Of a stretch of 64,000 nucleotides of DNA, positions 35,883 through 48,667 are shown piece by piece. The stretch spans positions 1 to 64,000 of the forward strand of contig JASJBF010000034.1 in assembly GCA_030066685.1 (NCBI GenBank), written 5' to 3'. The notes beneath the pieces were generated by a model. It did no database searches and was not told the DNA's origin. It saw only the letters and a list, made by a program, of their open reading frames with translations. Both the position numbers and the translations under genes were made by a program. This stretch comes from Kiloniellales bacterium. GTDB lineage: Bacteria; Pseudomonadota; Alphaproteobacteria; Kiloniellales; JAKSBE01. Numbering within the stretch: position 1 is the stretch's first letter; the number at the start of each line of letters is the position of its first letter.

Positions 35883-37001
35883 TCAGAGCGGCGCCGCCAG
35901 CGCGATGACCAGGAACATCGCGGTGATCAGGATTCCCCAGGGCAGGAAGGTGACGTCGAGGCGGCCGCGCCGCGCCAGGCCGCGGCGAAGGGTCCAGAGG
36001 TTGCCGGCCAGCACTGCCAGGATGATCACCAGCAGGAGCAGCAGCCACGGGTTCTGCGCGCTGCCGAGGAGGATCGGCAGGCCGGTCAGGCCGAAGAGCA
36101 GGGCCGAGGTGACGACCAGCGGGGCGCGCGTCTCCGCCCCCCGTCCCGGGCCCCGGCCGGTGACCGCGGCGATCAGCCGCCCGCCGTCGAAGCCGGGCAG
36201 GGGCAGCAGCGACAGGCCGGCGAAGGCCAGCGACAGCAGCGCGAAGCCGTAGATCGACTTCGCCGCCACGGTGTCCCGCTCGAAGCCGGGCAGGATCTCG
36301 GCCAGAGGATAGAACAGGCGGTTGGTCAAGGTCGGCCGGATGCAGGGGTTGGGGACCGCGGCGGCGGCCCGGCAGGCCGCCTCGGCCAGGCAGACGCTGG
36401 GTCCGGCCGCGCCGTCGGTCCTGCAGGCCTGCGGCCAGCCCCCGATCAGCACGCGGAAGGGGTGCCGCACCAGACGCCAGGTCTCGTCCAGGGACAGCAC
36501 CAGCGCGGATCCTGGCCCGGGCCGCAGCGTGGCCAGGCCGGGCCGGAGGTCCTTGCCGGTCTGCAGGCTGGCGGCGGCGCTCTGCGGACCCTGCTCGCCC
36601 GGCGCTGACCCTCCGCCGGCGGGCGCGAAGCCGAGGAAGAAGACGTAGAGCAGCAGGACCGCCAAGGCGAGGTTACCGCCGGCACCGCCCAGGGCGAGCA
36701 GGATCCGCTGCGGTCGCCTCAGCTCCCGCCAGGCCAGACCCTGGACTGCCGGCGCCCCCGCGCCCTCGCCGGCCAGCCGCAGATGGCCGAAGAGCGGGAT
36801 CCAGCCAAGCTGCCACTGCGTCCCGCGGCGGTCGCGTCGCTGCAGCAAGATCGGTCCCAGGCCGACGCGGAAGACCTCGACGCCGAGCCCGAGCAGGCGC
36901 GCCGCCAGGTAGTGGCCCAGGTTGTGCGCAACGACCACCAGGGAGAGCAGCAAGCTCCAGGCGGCGAGCAGCAGGAGGCTCAGGCTGATGATGCTCCACA
37001 T
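35883..37001 (-). CDS. Site-2-protease (M50) homologue lacking the catalytic Glu
   Basis: This 372-residue polytopic membrane protein has the M50 fold: a first helix ending in VVVAHNLGHYLAARLLG, a VGLGP loop, an inserted periplasmic segment, and LSLLPLPGFDGGRLIAAVTGR in a late helix. In active enzymes the first motif is HExxH; here it is HNLGH (codon AAC), so the general base is gone although both His and the LDGG-type Asp remain. It may be a pseudoprotease that binds zinc or substrates. The C-terminus adds two or three more hydrophobic helices. Confidence 0.75.
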   Translation of the reverse strand: MWSIISLSLLLLAAWSLLLSLVVVAHNLGHYLAARLLGLGVEVFRVGLGPILLQRRDRRGTQWQLGWIPLFGHLRLAGEGAGAPAVQGLAWRELRRPQRILLALGGAGGNLALAVLLLYVFFLGFAPAGGGSAPGEQGPQSAAASLQTGKDLRPGLATLRPGPGSALVLSLDETWRLVRHPFRVLIGGWPQACRTDGAAGPSVCLAEAACRAAAAVPNPCIRPTLTNRLFYPLAEILPGFERDTVAAKSIYGFALLSLAFAGLSLLPLPGFDGGRLIAAVTGRGPGRGAETRAPLVVTSALLFGLTGLPILLGSAQNPWLLLLLVIILAVLAGNLWTLRRGLARRGRLDVTFLPWGILITAMFLVIALAAPL

Positions 37002-37114: not shown

Positions 37115-39256
37115 TCAGCGTGACGCCATCGCCGTCCGGCCCTCGCTATTGCCGGGCGCGTCGCTCCGGCGCCGCTCGCAGGTCCCCCGCAGACGCTCGG
37201 CGACCGCGTCCCGGCCGTGACGCAGCGCGTCGTCCAGGGGCGTGTTGCCCCAGCGGTCCCGCGGCTCGAGCGCGATCCCCTGGGCGATGAAGTATTCGAC
37301 GACCTTCAGGTGGCCTTCCGCCGCCGCCAGGTGCAGCGGCGTGCGCAGGTCGTAGTCGGCGATGTCGAGCGGCACGCCCTTGGCGACCAAGCGGCAGATC
37401 GTGGTCAGGTCGCCGGCGCTGGCGGCCCAGATCAGCTCGGCCGTGGTGCTGGCCTCGGCCTGCAGGCGCTGGGCCAGCGGCGGCAGGTCGGCGTTGCCGG
37501 GCAGGCTCGGCGCGCCGCGGCGGGCGCCGGCGCCTTCCAGCAGCGCGATGACCTCGCGATGGCCCTGCAGATAGGCGTCGTCCAGCGGCGTGCCGCCCCA
37601 GCGGTCCTTCGGGCTGAGGTCGACGCCAGCGGGGCTGCGCGCCTGCTCCCGGACGTAGAAGCCGACCACCTCGGCCTGGTTCTCCGCCGCCGCCAGGTGC
37701 AGCGGCGTGCGCAGGTCGTAGTCGGCGCAGCCCAGCTCGGCGCCGCGCAGGAGCTGGTCCTGGATCGCGCCCAGGTCGCCCTTGCTGGCCGCCCAGATCA
37801 GCTCGTTGACCCGGGTCGCCTGGCGGCGCGTGCCGCTGATCCGCGGGTCCTTCTTGGCCGAGGCGTCGGTCAGGGTGTCGTAGTTGTGGAAGTTGAAGGT
37901 CTCGACCAGGCGGCGGCAGAACTCGACGCCGCGCACGCTGTTGCCGTGGGCGTCCAGGCGCGGCGACCACGTGCAGAGCCCCATGACGTTGGGAATCACG
38001 ATCATGATCCCGCCGCAGACCCCGCTCTTGGCCGGCAGGCCGATGGTGAAGGCGAACTCGCCGGAGAAGTCGTACATGCCGCAGGAGGACATCATCGCCA
38101 GGCAGCGCTGCACGGTCTCGGTCCGGAAGACGCGGACGCCGCTGATCGGGCAGATCCCGCCGTTGGCCAGGGTCGCGGCCACGACCGACATCATCTCCGC
38201 GTTCATCTCGATGGCGCAGCACTGGAAGTAGAAGTCGAGCACGTCCTGCAGCTCTGCGTCTTCCGGAAAGGCGTCCTTTTCGCGCATGAAGTAGGCCAGC
38301 GCGAAGTTGCGGTCGGCGGTCTGCCGCTCCGAGAGGTAAACCGGCGTGGAGAAGCGCGGCTTCTCGCCGCCGCAGAGCGCCTGCCAGCAGGCCATGACGG
38401 CGTCGAAGCGGGCGCCCGCCCAGCCCCGGGCGTCGAGCCCGCCCTGTCCGGCCAGGCGGCGCTTCTCCCGCAGGCTGATCAGGGCGCTGCTCATGATCGC
38501 GCCGGCGTTGATCATGGGATTGTGCGGCCGGTTTTGCTTGTCGAGGGTCAGCTCGTTGAAGCAGGCGCCGCTCGGCTCGTGGCCGATGTAGGCATGGACC
38601 TCGGCCGCGCCGTGCTCCTCCAGCGCCAGGCAGTAGTTGATCGGCTTGCAGGTCGACTGCAGCGAAAAGAAGGTCCCGGAGTCGCCGAAGGCGGCACGCT
38701 GGCCGTCGACCGTGCAGATGCCGACGCCGAAGCGGTCGAGCTCGGGCCCCTTCAGGTCGAGCTGCGGGATGTAGTCGGCGGCCTTGCCGCTGCGGTTTGC
38801 CGCCGTTGCGGCGTGGATCCGCTCGATCTCCCGGCAGAAGTCGGTGAAGTCCGGGATCACCATCTGGCCCTGCAGCGCGCGTTCGATCAGCAGGATGTTG
38901 TGGCGGATCGCGGTGCAGAAGCTCTCCTGGGGGATCGCCGGTTCCGGCGCCTCCTCGCGCTGTGCGTCCTGCTCCCGCCGATGGGCCTCGAGGGCCAGCA
39001 TGCTCTCGCGCAGCCGCAGGTCGTCCGGGCTCAGGCCGACCTGGACCAGCATCTTCTCCAGGTCGCTGCACAGCACCCGGTCGTCGTTGTCCAGGTCCAG
39101 CGACTTGAATAGGCGGACCTCCCGCTGATCGAGGCCCTGGGCCGCGCCGGCGCTCTGCGAAGCCGCGGCGACGATCGAAAGCGAGCCGGACTTGCGCGGC
39201 GCCTTGGTGCTGCGCCCGGACCTCTCGCTCTGACGGGGGTTCTTGCGCGTGGACAT
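37115..39256 (-). CDS. glsA: Long glutaminase with EF-hand-like N-terminus and ankyrin repeats
   Basis: The enzyme hydrolyses glutamine to glutamate and ammonia. The 713-residue protein is more than twice the usual bacterial length (about 310). Residues 40-150 form an EF-hand-like helical region (LDLDNDDRVLCSDLEKML). The beta-lactamase-fold glutaminase domain spans about 160-470, with the Ser-x-x-Lys dyad STCK at 201-204, HNPMINAGAIMSSAL and KSGVCGGIMIVIPN. The C-terminal 200 residues hold two pairs of ankyrin repeats (YDLRTPLHLAAAE appears twice). This layout is that of animal kidney-type GLS. Its neighbours are amt and glnA, and it carries the shared upstream module. Confidence 0.92.
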   Translation of the reverse strand: MSTRKNPRQSERSGRSTKAPRKSGSLSIVAAASQSAGAAQGLDQREVRLFKSLDLDNDDRVLCSDLEKMLVQVGLSPDDLRLRESMLALEAHRREQDAQREEAPEPAIPQESFCTAIRHNILLIERALQGQMVIPDFTDFCREIERIHAATAANRSGKAADYIPQLDLKGPELDRFGVGICTVDGQRAAFGDSGTFFSLQSTCKPINYCLALEEHGAAEVHAYIGHEPSGACFNELTLDKQNRPHNPMINAGAIMSSALISLREKRRLAGQGGLDARGWAGARFDAVMACWQALCGGEKPRFSTPVYLSERQTADRNFALAYFMREKDAFPEDAELQDVLDFYFQCCAIEMNAEMMSVVAATLANGGICPISGVRVFRTETVQRCLAMMSSCGMYDFSGEFAFTIGLPAKSGVCGGIMIVIPNVMGLCTWSPRLDAHGNSVRGVEFCRRLVETFNFHNYDTLTDASAKKDPRISGTRRQATRVNELIWAASKGDLGAIQDQLLRGAELGCADYDLRTPLHLAAAENQAEVVGFYVREQARSPAGVDLSPKDRWGGTPLDDAYLQGHREVIALLEGAGARRGAPSLPGNADLPPLAQRLQAEASTTAELIWAASAGDLTTICRLVAKGVPLDIADYDLRTPLHLAAAEGHLKVVEYFIAQGIALEPRDRWGNTPLDDALRHGRDAVAERLRGTCERRRSDAPGNSEGRTAMASR

Positions 39257-39320: not shown

Positions 39321-39383
39321 TTTAGGGGACCGCCGTTTCAGGGCGATGTCTCGGCTTGGACTTTAGTGTTGCAGTTGTGTCAG
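39321..39383 (-). promoter_or_regulatory. Shared upstream module, glsA copy
   Basis: Read on the minus strand, this 63-bp stretch holds ACAACTG, then after 27 bases ATCGCCCTGAAA, then after 9 bases CCTAAA, ending 65 bases before the glsA ATG. The same arrangement precedes amt, glnA and the DUF1127 gene. Confidence 0.7.
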
Positions 39384-39489: not shown

Positions 39490-40836
39490 TCAGGAGTTCG
39501 AGGGCGCCGCCGAGAATTCGGGATAGGCCCGCATGCCGGTCTCCACCTCGTCGACGCCGAGGGCCTCGCCGACCTCGGTCAGGCGCAGCCGCACGGTCAC
39601 CTTGAGGGCGAGCCAGACCAGGGTGCTGAGGCTCGAGACGAAGACCCCGACCGCGGCGATGCCCAGGGCCTGTGTCGCCAGGCTGGCGTCCGGATTGGTG
39701 AAGGTCACCGCCAGGGTGCCCCAGATGCCGGCCACGAGATGGACCGGGATCGCGCCCACCACGTCGTCGATCCGGAAGCGGTCGAGCAGCGGCGTGCAGG
39801 CCACGACCAGGCCGCCGCCGACCGCGCCGATCAGGCAGGCGGCGCCGACGCTCGCGGTATCCGGGCCGGCGGTGATGCTGACGAGGCCGGCCAGGGCGCC
39901 GTTGAGCGCCATGGTCAGGTCGACCCGTCCGGTAGTCAGCTGGTTCAGGCCCATCGCCGCCATCACGCCGCAGGCCGAGGCCATGGTGGTGTTGACGTAG
40001 ATGTTGGAGACGGCGACGGCGTCCGCGGCCGAGCCCAGGGCGAGCTGCGAGCCGCCGTTGAAGCCGAGCCAGCCGAGCCAGAGGATGAAGGTCCCCAGGG
40101 TCGCCAGCGGCAGCGAGGAGCCCGGCATGGGCATCACCTTGCCGTCGGGGCCGTAGCGCCCGCGCCGCGCGCCGACGATGATCGCGCCGCAGAGCGCGGC
40201 CCAGCCGCCGACCGAGTGGACCAGGGTCGAGCCGGCGAAGTCGACGAAGCCGAGCTCGGCCAGCCAGCCTCCGCCCCAGTGCCAGGCGCCCTGGATCGGG
40301 TAGATCACGGCGGTCAGCACGACCACGAAGCCGAGGAAGGGCCAGAGCTTGACCCGCTCGGCCAGGGCGCCGGAGACGATCGAGGCGGCCGTGGCGACGA
40401 AGACCATCTGGAAGAACCAGTCCGAGGCGGCGGCGTAGCCGGCGCTGTAGTCGCCGGCCAGGGCGGCCGTGTCGTCGGCCTGCCAGACCGCGAGCGAGCC
40501 CAGGAATCCGCCGTCGACGCCCTGGTACATCAAATTGTAGCCGACCAGGTAGAAGGCGATCCCGGCGATCGAGAAGAGGGCGATGTTCTTCAGCAGGATC
40601 GTGGTCACGCTCTTGGTCCGGACCAGGCCCGACTCCAGCATGGCGAAGCCGGCCGCCATCCAGAGTACGAGGAAGCCGTGCACCAGGAAGGACAGGGTGT
40701 TGAACACGTAGGCCGTTTCCTCCGAGACCGCGGCCTGGGCTGGCGTCGAAACGGCGACCAGGGCGAGCCCGGCCATGAGACCGCCACCCAGGCCGAGCCC
40801 GCGGTGCCCCTGCGGGCGGCGTAGTTTGCAAGACAT
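39490..40836 (-). CDS. amt: Ammonium transporter (Amt family)
   Basis: This is an inner-membrane ammonium channel. The 448 residues have a cleavable-type N-terminus (LMAGLALVAVSTPAQAA) and eleven hydrophobic helices. Family motifs include FAMLESGLVRTKS, DFAGSTLVHSVGGWAALCGA (with the first pore His) and DDVVGAIPVHLVAGIWGTLA (second pore His). The usual glnK partner gene is absent from both sides. The shared upstream module and a position between glutaminase and glutamine synthetase suggest a dedicated ammonium-handling unit. Confidence 0.95.
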   Translation of the reverse strand: MSCKLRRPQGHRGLGLGGGLMAGLALVAVSTPAQAAVSEETAYVFNTLSFLVHGFLVLWMAAGFAMLESGLVRTKSVTTILLKNIALFSIAGIAFYLVGYNLMYQGVDGGFLGSLAVWQADDTAALAGDYSAGYAAASDWFFQMVFVATAASIVSGALAERVKLWPFLGFVVVLTAVIYPIQGAWHWGGGWLAELGFVDFAGSTLVHSVGGWAALCGAIIVGARRGRYGPDGKVMPMPGSSLPLATLGTFILWLGWLGFNGGSQLALGSAADAVAVSNIYVNTTMASACGVMAAMGLNQLTTGRVDLTMALNGALAGLVSITAGPDTASVGAACLIGAVGGGLVVACTPLLDRFRIDDVVGAIPVHLVAGIWGTLAVTFTNPDASLATQALGIAAVGVFVSSLSTLVWLALKVTVRLRLTEVGEALGVDEVETGMRAYPEFSAAPSNS

Positions 40837-40910: not shown

Positions 40911-40973
40911 CCTAGGGGCCGGGGATTTCAGGACGATGTCCCGCCGCAAGAGAAGGGTTTCAATTGTAAACGC
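40911..40973 (-). promoter_or_regulatory. Shared upstream module, amt copy
   Basis: On the minus strand: ACAATTG, 26 bases, ATCGTCCTGAAA, 9 bases, CCTAGG, 75 bases before the amt ATG. Confidence 0.7.
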
Positions 40974-41008: not shown

Positions 41009-41038
41009 GGACCCGCCGGCGGAGAGGCCGGCGGGTCC
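41009..41038 (-). terminator. Strong hairpin downstream of glnA
   Basis: A perfect 12-bp stem (41009-41020 with 41027-41038) with a 6-base loop begins 34 bases after the glnA stop and is followed by TCTTCGTT on the minus strand. Confidence 0.55.
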
Positions 41039-41071: not shown

Positions 41072-42481
41072 TCAGGCGCTGTAGTACATCTGGAACTCGA
41101 CCGGATGCGGGGCCTGCTCGAAGGTCAGGATCTCGTCCCACTTGAGCTCGCTGTAGGCCGCGATCTGGTCCCGGTTGAAGACATCGCCCTCGAGCAGGAA
41201 GTCGTGGTCCTTCTCCAGGGCCGTGACCGCCTGGCGCAGCGAGCCGCAGACCGTCGGCACGCCGGCCAGATCCTCGGGCGGCAGGTCGTAGAGGTTCTTG
41301 TCCATCGGATCGCCGGGATCGATCTTGTTCCTGATCCCGTCCAGGCCGGCCATGAGCATGGCCGCGAAGGCCAGGTAGGGATTGGCGGTCGCGTCGGGAA
41401 AGCGCACCTCGATGCGCCGCGAGCTCGGGCTCGAGCCGTAGGGGATGCGGCAGGAGGCCGAGCGGTTGCGCGCCGAATAGGCCAGCAGCACCGGCGCCTC
41501 GAAGCCCGGCACCAACCGCTTGTAGCTGTTGGTGGTCGGGTTGGTGAAGGCGTTCAGGGTCCGCGCGTGGCGGATGATGCCGCCGATGTAGTGCAGCGCG
41601 TTCTCCGAAAGGCCGGCGTAGTCGTTGCCGGCGAAGACCGGCGTCCCGTTGTGCCAGATCGACTGGTGCGTGTGCATGCCCGAGCCATTGTCCGCGGCCA
41701 CCGGCTTGGGCATGAAGGTCGCCGACTTGCCGTGGGTATGGGCGACGTTTTGGACGCAGTACTTGTAGATCTGGAGGTTGTCGGCACAGCGCACCAGGGT
41801 GTCGTAGCGCAGCCCGAGCTCGTGCTGCGAGGGGGCGACCTCGTGGTGGTGCTTCTCGATGGTCAAGCCCATGGCCAGCATGGTGTCGACCATCTCGGCG
41901 CGCAAGTCGGCGCCGGAATCCACCGGCGGGACCGGGAAGTAGCCGCCCTTGATGGTCGGCCGGTGGCCCCGGTTGCCGCTGTCGAAGGCCTCGCCCGAGA
42001 CATAGGGGCCCTCTTCCGAGGAGAAGCGGAAGAAGCTGTGGTTCATGTCGTTGCCGTAGCGGACGTCGTCGAAGACGAAGAACTCGGCCTCCGGTCCGAA
42101 GACGGCGCGGTCGCCGACGCCCAGCGCGCGCAGGTAGGCCTCGGCCTTGCGCGCCGTGGAGCGGGGATCGCGGCCGTAGGCCTGGCCGGTCCCGGGCTCC
42201 AGGACGTCGCAGATCAGGATCAGCTGCGGCTGGGCTGAGATCGGATCGAGGACCGCGGTGGACAGGTCGGGCTTGAGCAGCATGTCGGACTCGTTGATCG
42301 CCTTCCAGCCGGCGATCGAGGAGCCGTCGAACATAACCCCGACCTTCAGCGCCTCCTCGTCCACGGCCTCGGCGCAGATGGCCAGGTGCTGCCACTTGCC
42401 GCGGGGGTCGGTGAAGCGGTAGTCGACGTAGCGGATCCCCTTCGCCTTGATCATCTGGAGAATCTTCTCGGGCTTTGACAT
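41072..42481 (-). CDS. glnA: Glutamine synthetase, type I
   Basis: The enzyme makes glutamine from glutamate, ammonia and ATP. The 469 residues carry [19 protein letters not shown], the metal-ligand segment [12 protein letters not shown], the ammonium-site [21 protein letters not shown] and the adenylylation-site Tyr in [11 protein letters not shown], so control by an adenylyltransferase is expected. The usual alphaproteobacterial glnB neighbour is missing, suggesting this may be a second copy in the genome. No sigma-54 or NtrC-type site is visible upstream; the shared module is there instead. Confidence 0.96.
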
Positions 42482-42551: not shown

Positions 42552-42614
42552 CTTAGGCGGCGAGTTTTTCCGGAGGATGTCGCGCGGCCCGGAAAAGGGT
42601 TTCCTTTGTATCCT
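42552..42614 (-). promoter_or_regulatory. Shared upstream module, glnA copy
   Basis: On the minus strand: ACAAAGG, 27 bases in all, ATCCTCCGGAAA, 9 bases, CCTAAG, 71 bases before the glnA ATG. Confidence 0.7.
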
Positions 42615-42847: not shown

Positions 42848-43162
42848 CTATACGGTCTTCGCCATCATCGGCCTTACGGTCTTGTTGATATCTGCAGCGC
42901 TTTCGATCTTCGCCTTGGACAGATCGTGCGAGGCCTGGAGGTTCATCCAGAACTCGGGCGTGGTGCCGAAGAACCGGGCAAGCCGCAGCGCCGTGTCGGG
43001 GGTGACGTTCCGCCTGCCGTGCAGAATGGTCGTCACACGGTTCGCCGGCACGCCGATGGCCTGGGCGAGCTTGTTGGCGCTCATGCCGAGCGGCACAAGG
43101 AACTCCTCCTTGAGAACTTCGCCGGGGTGCGTCGTGATCCTGTTGTCTGGCGTCCTGAGCAT
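42848..43162 (-). CDS. higA: HigA-type antitoxin (XRE helix-turn-helix)
   Basis: The 104 residues begin LRTPDNRITTHPGEVLKEEFLVPLGMSANKLAQAIGV, the typical HigA/VapI opening. The helix-turn-helix spans about 25-55 (MSANKLAQAIGVPANRVTTILHGRRN), followed by TALRLARFFGTTPEFWMNLQASHDL. It should neutralise HigB and repress its own operon. The gene starts 8 bases after the higB stop; the toxin-first order is typical of higBA. The C-terminal part, starting with KAKIESAADINKTV, is slightly extended. Confidence 0.92.
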   Translation of the reverse strand: MLRTPDNRITTHPGEVLKEEFLVPLGMSANKLAQAIGVPANRVTTILHGRRNVTPDTALRLARFFGTTPEFWMNLQASHDLSKAKIESAADINKTVRPMMAKTV

Positions 43163-43170
43163 GTTCAACC

Positions 43171-43449
43171 TCAATGGTAGTCGACGATTCCGACATTGTA
43201 GGCGTCGTGCTCCGCCCACTCGAAGCACACGCGCCACTGCCTGTTGATCCGGATCGACCATTGGCCGGCCCGATCCCCGGCCAGGGCCTCAAGGCGGTTT
43301 CCGGGCGGCGCGCGAAGGTCTTCGATCTCGTAGGCGGCGTTGACCATATCGAGCTTCCGCCTGGCGACCGACGCGAAAGGCCTGAACTGGCGGACATCCT
43401 GACCGTTCCAGAAGGCCTCGGTGCGTCGGTCCTTGAAGCTCCTGATCAT
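43171..43449 (-). CDS. higB: HigB-type mRNA endonuclease toxin (RelE superfamily)
   Basis: The 92 residues carry MIRSFKDRRTEAFWNG at the N-terminus, the hydrophobic AYEIEDLRAPPGNRLEALAGDRAGQWSIRINRQWRVCFEW core and the terminal VGIVDYH. These are standard for the HigB/GraT branch, which cleaves mRNA on the ribosome. The -10-like element ends only 7 bases before the ATG, suggesting a leaderless transcript. Confidence 0.92.
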   Translation of the reverse strand: MIRSFKDRRTEAFWNGQDVRQFRPFASVARRKLDMVNAAYEIEDLRAPPGNRLEALAGDRAGQWSIRINRQWRVCFEWAEHDAYNVGIVDYH

Positions 43450-43654: not shown

Positions 43655-44392
43655 TCAGACGTGCCAGGCCATCAGCTTGCGGGGGCTGTAGATGTAGCCG
43701 GCGCCGCGGACCGTCTTGATGATCTGCGGCTTCCCCGGGTCCTCCTCGATCTTGCGGCGGATCCGGACGATGCGGATGTCGATGCTGCGGTCGAAGGGCT
43801 CCCAGCTCCGGTGGTGCGCCATGTCGAGCAGCTGGTCCCGGCTGAGGACCCGGTTGGGGTGCTCGGCGAAGGCCTTGAGCAGGTCGTACTCCATGCTGGT
43901 CAGCGGGATCTCCCGGCCCTCGGCGTCGAAGAGCTTGTGAGAGTCGAGGTTGAGCCGGCAGTTGCCGAAGGGCACCTCGTTGGGCGGCCGCGGCGCCGCC
44001 TCCGGCCGGGCCTCGCCCCGGCCGTGCAGCCGCCGGGCGACGGCCTTGACCCGGGCCAGCAGCTCGCGCAGGTCGACCGGTTTGGCCAGGTAGTCGTCGG
44101 CCCCGACCTCCAGACCGACGACCCGGTCGACCACTTCGCCCGCCGCGGTCAGCATGATGATGCCGACCGCGGTCTTGTCGCGCAGGAAGCGGGCCAGGGA
44201 CAGCCCGTCCTCGCCCGGCATGGAGATGTCGAGAAGCACAAGGTCGACCCGGGTCTCCTCGATCGCGCGGCGCAGGGCACTGCCGTCCTCCGCGGTGGAG
44301 ACGTCGAAGCCCCGCAGCGTCAGGTACTCCTGAAGCATGTCTCGGATCTCGGGCTCGTCGTCGACGACGAGGATGTGGATGCGGCGATCCAT
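43655..44392 (-). CDS. OmpR-type response regulator
   Basis: The 245 residues comprise a receiver domain (ILVVDDEPEIRDML, phospho-acceptor Asp in VLLDISMPGEDG, Lys in DDYLAKPVDL) and a C-terminal winged-helix DNA-binding domain (LTSMEYDLLKAFAEHPNRVLSRDQLLD, RSIDIRIVRIRRKIEEDP, IIKTVRGAGYIYSP). The ATG at 44392 has AAGGA upstream. It lies about 100 bases after the six-PAS hybrid kinase and is probably co-transcribed with it. It is a candidate regulator of the nearby genes with the shared module, which is inference from proximity. Confidence 0.92.
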   Translation of the reverse strand: MDRRIHILVVDDEPEIRDMLQEYLTLRGFDVSTAEDGSALRRAIEETRVDLVLLDISMPGEDGLSLARFLRDKTAVGIIMLTAAGEVVDRVVGLEVGADDYLAKPVDLRELLARVKAVARRLHGRGEARPEAAPRPPNEVPFGNCRLNLDSHKLFDAEGREIPLTSMEYDLLKAFAEHPNRVLSRDQLLDMAHHRSWEPFDRSIDIRIVRIRRKIEEDPGKPQIIKTVRGAGYIYSPRKLMAWHV

Positions 44393-44490
44393 CGGGTCAC
44401 GTCCTTCTTCAAGTCGCTGTCGGTCGGTCCGGGGGCACCTCGTTCCAGCTGTTGGCTGCGGCGCGCGCGCCGCGAGACTTGTCATGTGGT

Positions 44491-47985
<3,495 letters not shown>

Positions 47986-48210: not shown

Positions 48211-48531
48211 TCAGCGGTCCCAGTAGGGCGGCAGCTGCCGGCGGCGCGCCTCGAGATCATGGGCCAGGCCCGCGATCTCGGACCGGTTGACCCCAATGTC
48301 CTTGAGGACGTGGTCGTCCAGGCGGGACAACTCGTCGATCGTCCGGTTGACCCGCCGCCAGGCCAGGGCGGCGTCGAGCAGGCGGTGTAGATGCCTGTGC
48401 CCGTAGGCGACGGCGGATAGGATGTCGTCCGCCACGTAGCTCAAGGGGTTGGAGGGCTCCGAGTGGCGCCCGCTCGCCGGCCTCAAGGCGAGGCGACGGC
48501 CGATCAGTCGGTCCTCGGGTAGGTACGACAT
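48211..48531 (-). CDS. DUF1127 small protein
   Basis: The 106 residues end in the DUF1127 module (WRRVNRTIDELSRLDDHVLKDIGVNRSEI), a small basic helical motif common in alphaproteobacteria. Family members have been tied to RNA turnover and to phosphate and carbon regulation. The N-terminal 55 residues are an unusually long extension. The gene carries the same upstream module as glsA, amt and glnA and lies just upstream of the hybrid kinase gene. Confidence 0.85.
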   Translation of the reverse strand: MSYLPEDRLIGRRLALRPASGRHSEPSNPLSYVADDILSAVAYGHRHLHRLLDAALAWRRVNRTIDELSRLDDHVLKDIGVNRSEIAGLAHDLEARRRQLPPYWDR

Positions 48532-48604: not shown

Positions 48605-48667
48605 TTTAGGGACCGGGTGTTTCGGGGTGATAACGCGCGGTCGGCTTTTTTGTAACAGTTGTTTCAG
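48605..48667 (-). promoter_or_regulatory. Shared upstream module, DUF1127 copy
   Basis: On the minus strand: ACAACTG, 27 bases in all, ATCACCCCGAAA, 9 bases, CCTAAA, 74 bases before the ATG. It matches the glsA copy at 43 of 63 positions without a gap. Confidence 0.7.

Follow-up and report, generated by a model that had tools for sequence, protein, structure and literature searches.

A long, animal-type glutaminase gene in a Kiloniellales bacterium shares a putative control element with amt, glnA and a kinase-regulator cluster

The window analysed here, a stretch of 64,000 nucleotides from the genome of a Kiloniellales bacterium, carries a gene (gls) for a long glutaminase that groups with the animal enzymes KGA (GLS) and GLS2, and one DNA element is found ahead of this gene, ahead of its neighbours amt and glnA and ahead of a kinase-regulator cluster. 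We consider it probable, at about 0.62, that gls encodes a true long glutaminase serving a dedicated nitrogen module under two-component control. Four points behind this reading are established by sequence: the layout of the domains, the clade of the protein, the gene linkage and the presence of a shared element.

The gls reading frame runs uninterrupted through exactly the limits in the first of the following lines, and its domains lie within it:

37115..39256, minus strand: gls, long (animal-type) glutaminase, 713 aa (reading frame, Pfam, core tree)
38852..39115, minus strand: EF-hand_14 domain (profile search of the genome)
37880..38788, minus strand: glutaminase catalytic domain (PF04960, 342.8 bits)
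37520..37816, minus strand: ankyrin block 1, in the place of the single human GLS block (residues about 481-579 by HMM; model helices 472-575)
37172..37450, minus strand: ankyrin block 2, an extra block (residues about 603-695 by HMM; helices 602-698, pLDDT 74-94 by tens)

The preliminary description had proposed an EF-hand-like N-terminus, a glutaminase core and C-terminal ankyrin repeats, and Pfam detected all three. EF-hand_14 (PF17959, residues 49-135) scored 54.5 bits against a cut-off of 23.7, the core (residues 157-459) covered the complete profile (1-286 of 286) with 340.1 bits, and the ankyrin part reached 77.7 bits with Ank_2 in two stretches. The HMM positions of the two ankyrin blocks are 500-598 and 622-714 when counted in a frame with 19 residues ahead of the ATG. 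The profiles might have failed to support the EF-hand and ankyrin domains; both were supported. All ten of the active-site positions that we checked are retained, including S286, K289 and Y466 and, among those that we take to be catalytic, Y249, N335, E381, N388, Y414 and V484. By sequence, the nearest PDB matches were human KGA (E 1e-131) and GLS2, and KGA was the top Foldseek match of the AlphaFold model (mean pLDDT 70.4, pTM 0.52, built on an alignment of 8 sequences), in which helices are present in both ankyrin blocks and the inter-domain arrangement is uncertain. Judged by its sequence, the product is a genuine animal-type long glutaminase.

The PF04960 core and the catalytic residues are shared with bacterial GlsA proteins (YbaS of E. 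coli, YbgJ of B. subtilis and a second, short glutaminase of the same genome at C17:22725-23579), but Pfam and the core tree place the window protein outside the single-domain GlsA group, and YbaS and YbgJ were compared with it as weaker PDB matches only. KGA and GLS2 have the same EF-hand-like N-terminus, core (53% and 49% identity), C-terminal ankyrin repeats and active-site residues. The claimed likeness to kidney-type GLS holds for this three-part architecture, but not for the ankyrin part, which is doubled in Gls and single in both human enzymes; Gls also differs from them in its activation loop, filament contacts and EF-hand loop, described below, and has no mitochondrial setting.

Two ankyrin blocks are found in the window protein and in loci L003-L007 (L005 being from genome G239; the genome of the window is G000), compared to a single block in the remaining eight ankyrin-bearing bacterial rows. 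In G800, a separate ankyrin ORF of 95 aa starts in an ATGA overlap with the gls stop; the ORF coordinates give the same overlap in G807, and the order is the same in G813, where the sequence contains undetermined bases. In the ankyrin tree, which has 94 columns and long branches, the stand-alone blocks of this G800-type clade cluster with the internal ones at 97/93. The possibility that the stand-alone ORF of G800, G807 and G813 is an orthologue of block 2 was disfavoured by an AU test (p 0.019, for a group picked after the tree had been made), and a single clade for both blocks of the window lineage was not rejected (p 0.33). Because orthology with block 2 is disfavoured, two separate duplications appear the more likely history, one giving the second block within gls and the other giving the coupled gene.

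As had been described from the first inspection, gls is co-located with amt and glnA, both of which lie directly upstream on the same strand:

39490..40836, minus strand: amt, ammonium transporter, 448 aa (PF00909, 315.5 bits)
41072..42481, minus strand: glnA, glutamine synthetase, 469 aa (PF00120, 461.4 bits)
41009..41038, minus strand: terminator-like hairpin between glnA and amt, 12 pairs, a consensus match only

By length and sequence, glnA would encode a type I glutamine synthetase (GS), and it may simply be the housekeeping enzyme. Between 35500 and 43600, terminator-like sites were about as frequent as expected (4 versus 3.5), and in a sigma-70 scan of the same interval the only two promoter-like sites lay close to 43.5 kb; glnA, amt and gls had none immediately ahead of them. 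About 2.9 kb of anonymous sequence separates the end of glnA from amt in the sister genome G002 (L003:389-3331), compared to about 0.2 kb in the window, and the amt element is kept there. After gls, the window encodes a peptidase M50-like membrane protein (35883-37001), which is kept in G002 and had no match in the loci of G050, G055 and G057.

Among the 15 genomes with a long glutaminase, an amt gene lies within 1.5 kb of gls in seven, which belong to three lineages (G000, G002, G050, G055 and G057 in one, and G802 and G800). The gene order is GS-amt-gls in G802 and gls-ankyrin ORF-GS-amt in G800. A GS gene was found within about 5 kb of the long gls in G000, G002, G800, G802 and G813. For the window lineage this gene is glnA, the G002 copy being a fragment at a contig end; in the other three it is a form of about 360 aa (Gln-synt_C about 50 bits in G800 and G802), which from its length and sequence we take to be type II. 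None of the 16 short-gls loci, 15 from the order and one from G802 and 4-20 kb each, was matched by any of the amt and GS queries, two of each kind. Eight of the 15 long-form genomes have no adjacent amt, three of them on contigs under 7 kb (G801, G803 and G807), and in a search that covered 14 of the 15 genomes (all but G801) no amt match was obtained anywhere in G200, G298, G803 and G807. The amt tree requires four changes of the gls label, at least two of which are forced by well-supported branches, and so the amt-gls linkage is not one frozen event; common descent accounts for most rows.

Comparison of the upstream regions revealed an element of about 56 bp common to gls, amt, glnA and a cluster led by a DUF1127 gene, at 66-76 bp before the starts. 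The four copies and the genes of the cluster are as follows:

39323..39378, minus strand: control element before gls, 66 bp from the ATG, 0 mismatches, matrix score 37.6
40913..40967, minus strand: control element before amt, 76 bp from the ATG, spacer one base shorter, matrix score 47.2
42554..42609, minus strand: control element before glnA, 72 bp from the ATG, 0 mismatches, matrix score 40.4
48607..48662, minus strand: control element before the DUF1127-kinase-regulator cluster, 75 bp from the ATG, 2 mismatches, matrix score 33.2
48211..48531, minus strand: DUF1127 small protein, 106 aa, ahead of kinase and regulator (PF06568, 45.6 bits)
44491..47985, minus strand: multi-PAS hybrid histidine kinase, 1164 aa (Pfam)
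43655..44485, minus strand: OmpR-type response regulator (Response_reg and Trans_reg_C)

The consensus is ACAAnnGnnAC, 16/17 bp, GACATCnnCCnGAAA, 9 bp and nCTA, and the starts of the half-sites ACAAnTGAAAC and GACATCnnCCnGAAA are 27-28 bp apart. The shared control module that had been suspected for this region thus takes the form of one DNA element before gls, amt, glnA and the DUF1127 cluster. Each unit in the window has an element of its own, which suggests separate transcription and not a single operon; amt and gls in L040-L042, in contrast, look like one unit.

Six whole genomes were searched with a fixed-spacing pattern allowing at most three mismatches, which misses the amt site with its shorter spacer. 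There were 20 matches (four in G000, one in G002, one in G050, four in G055, two in G057 and eight in G239), compared to 0 for the reversed pattern. This 6-Mb genome has three of its four matches inside the window, and the amt site is a fifth. DUF1127/kinase genes, glnA, amt or gls follow 13 of the 20 matches, one match is a contig-end copy, and the remaining six stand before other or unassigned genes, including one in this genome (C17:54903). In G000, G002 and G239, gls itself is preceded by a copy of the element. Sigma-54 promoters were also considered for the window and were rejected, with 11 matches (at most two mismatches) against 10.67 expected in shuffles.

A matrix was made from 13 sites among 15 matches in G050, G055, G057 and G239, all of genera other than that of the window, a poor site (G057:C63) and the contig-end copy being dropped. 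Only four places in the window score 33 or more with this matrix, the training sites of which were found with the pattern first seen in the window; the next non-shifted window position has 18.6, and the best of 60 simulated 64-kb windows had 15.2. Stray scores in real loci were higher (24.4 in L044, 21.2 in L061, 20.7 in L082 and 19.7 in L081). Because the strays reach 24.4, we trust only scores well above 25, which leaves the amt site of L042 (25.3) at the edge and the glnA site of L110 (27.7) just above it. With the matrix, the element was not called before gls in the amt-gls loci L040-L042 or before amt in L040. The loci of G800, G802, G807 and G813 had none apart from the stray in L081, the other amt loci of the genus (L111, L114 and L115) had no score of 18 or more, and among the 15 short-gls loci of the order (L050-L064) such a score occurred only in L061.

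The kinase has no obvious membrane helix, its top 19-residue hydropathy being 1.61. Homologues of the regulator with 63-72% identity adjoin glnA-amt, amt or gls in other genomes. The kinase-regulator pair adjoins glnA-amt in G239:C110 and amt in G055:C121, and it occurs with DUF1127 and the element in G050, G057 and G055:C79. In G239, gls lies away from glnA-amt and beside a more distant copy of the pair (37% identity for the kinase, G239:C18). We propose that the soluble PAS kinase would phosphorylate the OmpR-type regulator, and that the regulator would bind the element at both half-sites, of which the inner one would lie near the -35 region, and would drive its own cluster, glnA, amt and gls together; regulator and element are paired by association only. 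Amt would then import ammonium, GS would make glutamine and the glutaminase would give back glutamate and ammonium. The direction of this cycle may be set post-translationally at the glutaminase, by the ankyrin blocks, the assembly state and perhaps calcium at the EF-hand loop. A role of gls in acid or osmotic stress, which had also been put forward, is unsupported.

Several arrangements around the kinase-regulator genes were observed in passing. A HigB/HigA-like toxin-antitoxin pair, named from the translations, lies between the regulator and glnA in the window (42848-43449); in G239:C110 (L110), glnA comes directly after the regulator. The end of G055:C170 and the start of G055:C121 (L139 and L112) carry the same 56-bp element, one with a GS (59% to the L008 form) and the other with kinase-regulator-amt, and they may be contiguous as GS-kinase-regulator-amt. 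A DUF1127-like ORF, and perhaps more, lies behind an element divergent from the gls-adjacent regulator-kinase pair of G239 (L043:2000-3321). In G800, genes for an NMT1-like binding protein, a histidine kinase and a LuxR-type regulator run divergently from the gls cassette (L008:4557-7703, Pfam), and by eye the arrangement in G813 (L076:10184-13238) is similar, which puts another two-component system beside a long gls.

Clusters of amt and glnA are common. It is possible, though on balance doubtful, that the window holds an ordinary clustering of nitrogen genes, in which a general nitrogen-limitation regulon includes a glutaminase as a mere glutamine scavenger, its ankyrin and EF-hand parts being an inherited scaffold with no regulatory role here. 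The element does precede kinase clusters without gls in G050, G055:C79 and G057, as this explanation would expect. However, the linkage is specific to the long form (7/15 versus 0/16 short), gls has an element of its own in the three genomes given above, and the ankyrin block was not only retained but doubled in two lineages.

Under the dedicated module that we prefer, the question is how the glutaminase itself would be controlled. According to the passages of PMC10912226 on the human enzyme, Lys320 is contacted by phosphate, Arg317 pairs with Glu325 and the K320A change gives a constitutive enzyme; roles of the activation-loop residues are also given in passages of PMC13142944. Aligned with human KGA, the window protein has K320E, E325K and R317C, and the signature of phosphate activation (Lys320 with the Arg317-Glu325 pair) is therefore absent from it. 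The same tendency was seen in all 15 bacterial long rows: K320 is replaced by Glu in 13 and by Ala in two (L018 and L019), R317 is lost in every one, and at position 325 there is a Lys or Arg in 11 rows and an Asn, His or Ser in the other four. The E320/K325 charge swap could keep the loop in place in the absence of phosphate. With Glu at 320 and Lys at 325, Gls should be active without phosphate, and the loss of all three residues, K320, R317 and E325, makes activation by phosphate unlikely. The window enzyme is thus probably phosphate-independent.

The filament contacts named in PMC10912226, in the passages concerned, are F355, F373, N375, F378, Q379, D412 and Q416. Four of these seven are identical in Gls, with F378 changed to Tyr, and 3-5 are kept in the other 14 bacterial long rows, compared to 0-2 in the ten short rows. 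PMC13142944 describes bacterial glutaminases, in the passage concerned, as being without the filament interface, and the figure there is of B. subtilis GlsA, a short form.

The EF-hand loop of the window protein, D-L-D-N-D-D-R-V-L-C-S-D (DLDNDDRVLCSD), has Asp at positions 1, 3, 5 and 12, whereas human KGA and GLS2 have E, Q and K at positions 3, 5 and 12 in the profile alignment. With what we take to be the canonical 12-residue calcium pattern, it agrees at positions 1, 3, 5, 8 and 12, and position 6 is not Gly. One such loop was seen in the protein, and EF-hand_7 gave 12.5 bits against a cut-off of 30. All six rows of the window lineage, L008 and L076 fit at the five positions; the fit is weaker in L077 (four), L010 and L020 (three), L011 (two) and L018 and L019 (one), and the loop region is missing from L009. 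These features could be combined in a PII-independent module with the glutaminase as its valve, where the two-component system would control the level, and calcium, the doubled ankyrin block and phosphate-independent filaments, with the Glu320-Lys325 pair replacing phosphate, would set the direction. We think it unlikely that this fuller proposal is correct. If it were, glutaminase filaments would predate animals and mitochondria, contrary to the current statement on the bacterial interface.

A PII gene was found beside none of the seven gls-linked amt genes, compared to 11 of the 17 others; this count covers 24 amt genes in 14 genomes, with the G800 fragment left out and two partial matches in G002. 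No PII protein was found in G800, G803, G807 and G813, all carriers of an EF-hand glutaminase. Both observations would agree with a long glutaminase that partners Amt in place of GlnK, its extra ankyrin block docking on the transporter and coupling ammonium flux to glutamine hydrolysis. We regard such a partnership as improbable, for two members of the same amt subfamily that are not linked to gls (G239:C110 and G055:C121) likewise have no PII beside them, which is perhaps a trait of the subfamily, and the four PII-less assemblies may be incomplete. In glnK-amtB/NtrBC control, Amt and GS are likewise controlled together; in contrast to that system, the window has an amt without an adjacent PII gene, an OmpR-type regulator and sigma-54-like sites at chance level. 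No match of the window circuit to a named nitrogen-control circuit was found.

Long glutaminases are rare among the relatives of this bacterium. Glutaminase genes occur in 19 of the 61 genomes of the order, and of these 20 genes 15 are short (frames of 309-403 aa) and five are long (722-773 aa; G000, G002, G050, G055 and G057). EF-hand_14 was above its cut-off in 5/58 relatives of the window genome, 5/385 genomes of the class, 1/398 of the phylum (the window's own), 1/116 relatives of G179, 4/143 of G800 and 1/144 of G802, in sets that partly overlap and each include their own centre genome; the profile search found it in none of the 14 control genomes. A further scan of contigs gave nine long-form loci, five of them contigs of G002, G050, G055, G057 and G239, and in total 15 genomes have a long glutaminase (G000, G002, G050, G055, G057, G239, G179, G200, G298, G800-G803, G807 and G813). 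The long form of G803 (L011) has the EF-hand and core without an ankyrin match, and the frame of G801 (L009) is missing its N-terminal part. The reservation in the preliminary description, that long forms might prove common and without special linkage, was not borne out. Plasmid carriage of the long forms was considered and rejected, with none of 202 matching plasmid records covering 80% of the protein at one place.

The ancestry of the long form was examined by a maximum-likelihood analysis of the aligned core (27 rows, 295 columns), with 15 bacterial long rows, 10 of the 16 short genes and two animal rows, both human, and no protists. The 17 long rows, human KGA and GLS2 among them, split from the 10 short ones at 100/99, and human GLS falls among the bacterial long forms, its exact neighbour being weakly placed (89/34). 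Core identity to human KGA is 52.9% for the window protein and 49.8-56.5% for all bacterial long rows, those of G807 and G813 among them, compared to 33.3-39.2% for the short rows. Human GLS/GLS2 thus appears as a branch inside the bacterial long-form clade, apart from GlsA. The term animal-like is apt in that the window protein groups with animal GLS, but the direction has to be reversed, as it is the animal enzyme that branches among bacterial forms. A recent transfer from an animal or protist, which the 53% core identity to human KGA might suggest, is hardly credible, since human GLS lies among 15 bacterial long rows, the window gene has relatives in its genus and order, and an animal-to-bacterium transfer is disfavoured by the core tree.

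Pasquali et al. reportedly derived the multidomain glutaminase layout from bacterial ancestors in 2017, and the position of the animal enzyme as a branch of bacterial long forms is in accordance with this, as earlier work had proposed. An early acquisition of the ankyrin repeats is stated in a passage of PMC13142944, which cites Pasquali et al. 2017. A bacterial long glutaminase is not new in itself because such enzymes are already in print; what goes beyond the known architecture is the shared element, the linkage of long gls with amt and the doubled ankyrin block. The doubled block, the regulon and the charge swap in the loop may or may not be covered already by Pasquali et al. 2017. The open-licence literature yielded no account of a bacterial glutaminase with an ammonium transporter, ankyrin repeats and GS, or of an ankyrin-repeat glutaminase of alphaproteobacteria, which is weak evidence of absence, and for an EF-hand in a bacterial glutaminase it gave only a passage on human GLS. 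For DUF1127 in combination with GS and a response regulator it gave a Rhodovulum genome comparison.

Human glutaminase is a cancer target, and the explanation of what its ankyrin and EF-hand regions do is still incomplete. The bacterial relatives have these regions too, and their genes form a compact regulon with those for GS and an ammonium channel; they offer a tractable system for studying the regions, and for asking which arose earlier, filament formation or the phosphate switch. A nitrogen-control circuit is indicated by the shared element, and this circuit may show how ancestors of the human enzyme were used.

A last observation concerns G800, in which an amt fragment (L008:3889-4159; G800:C34:13970-14234) is 97.7% identical to the intact amt over 44 aa. 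At the same spot there is a weak glutaminase fragment with stops, below the cut-off. Both fragments are about 4 kb from the intact cassette and on the opposite strand, and they are perhaps the remnants of a second copy.
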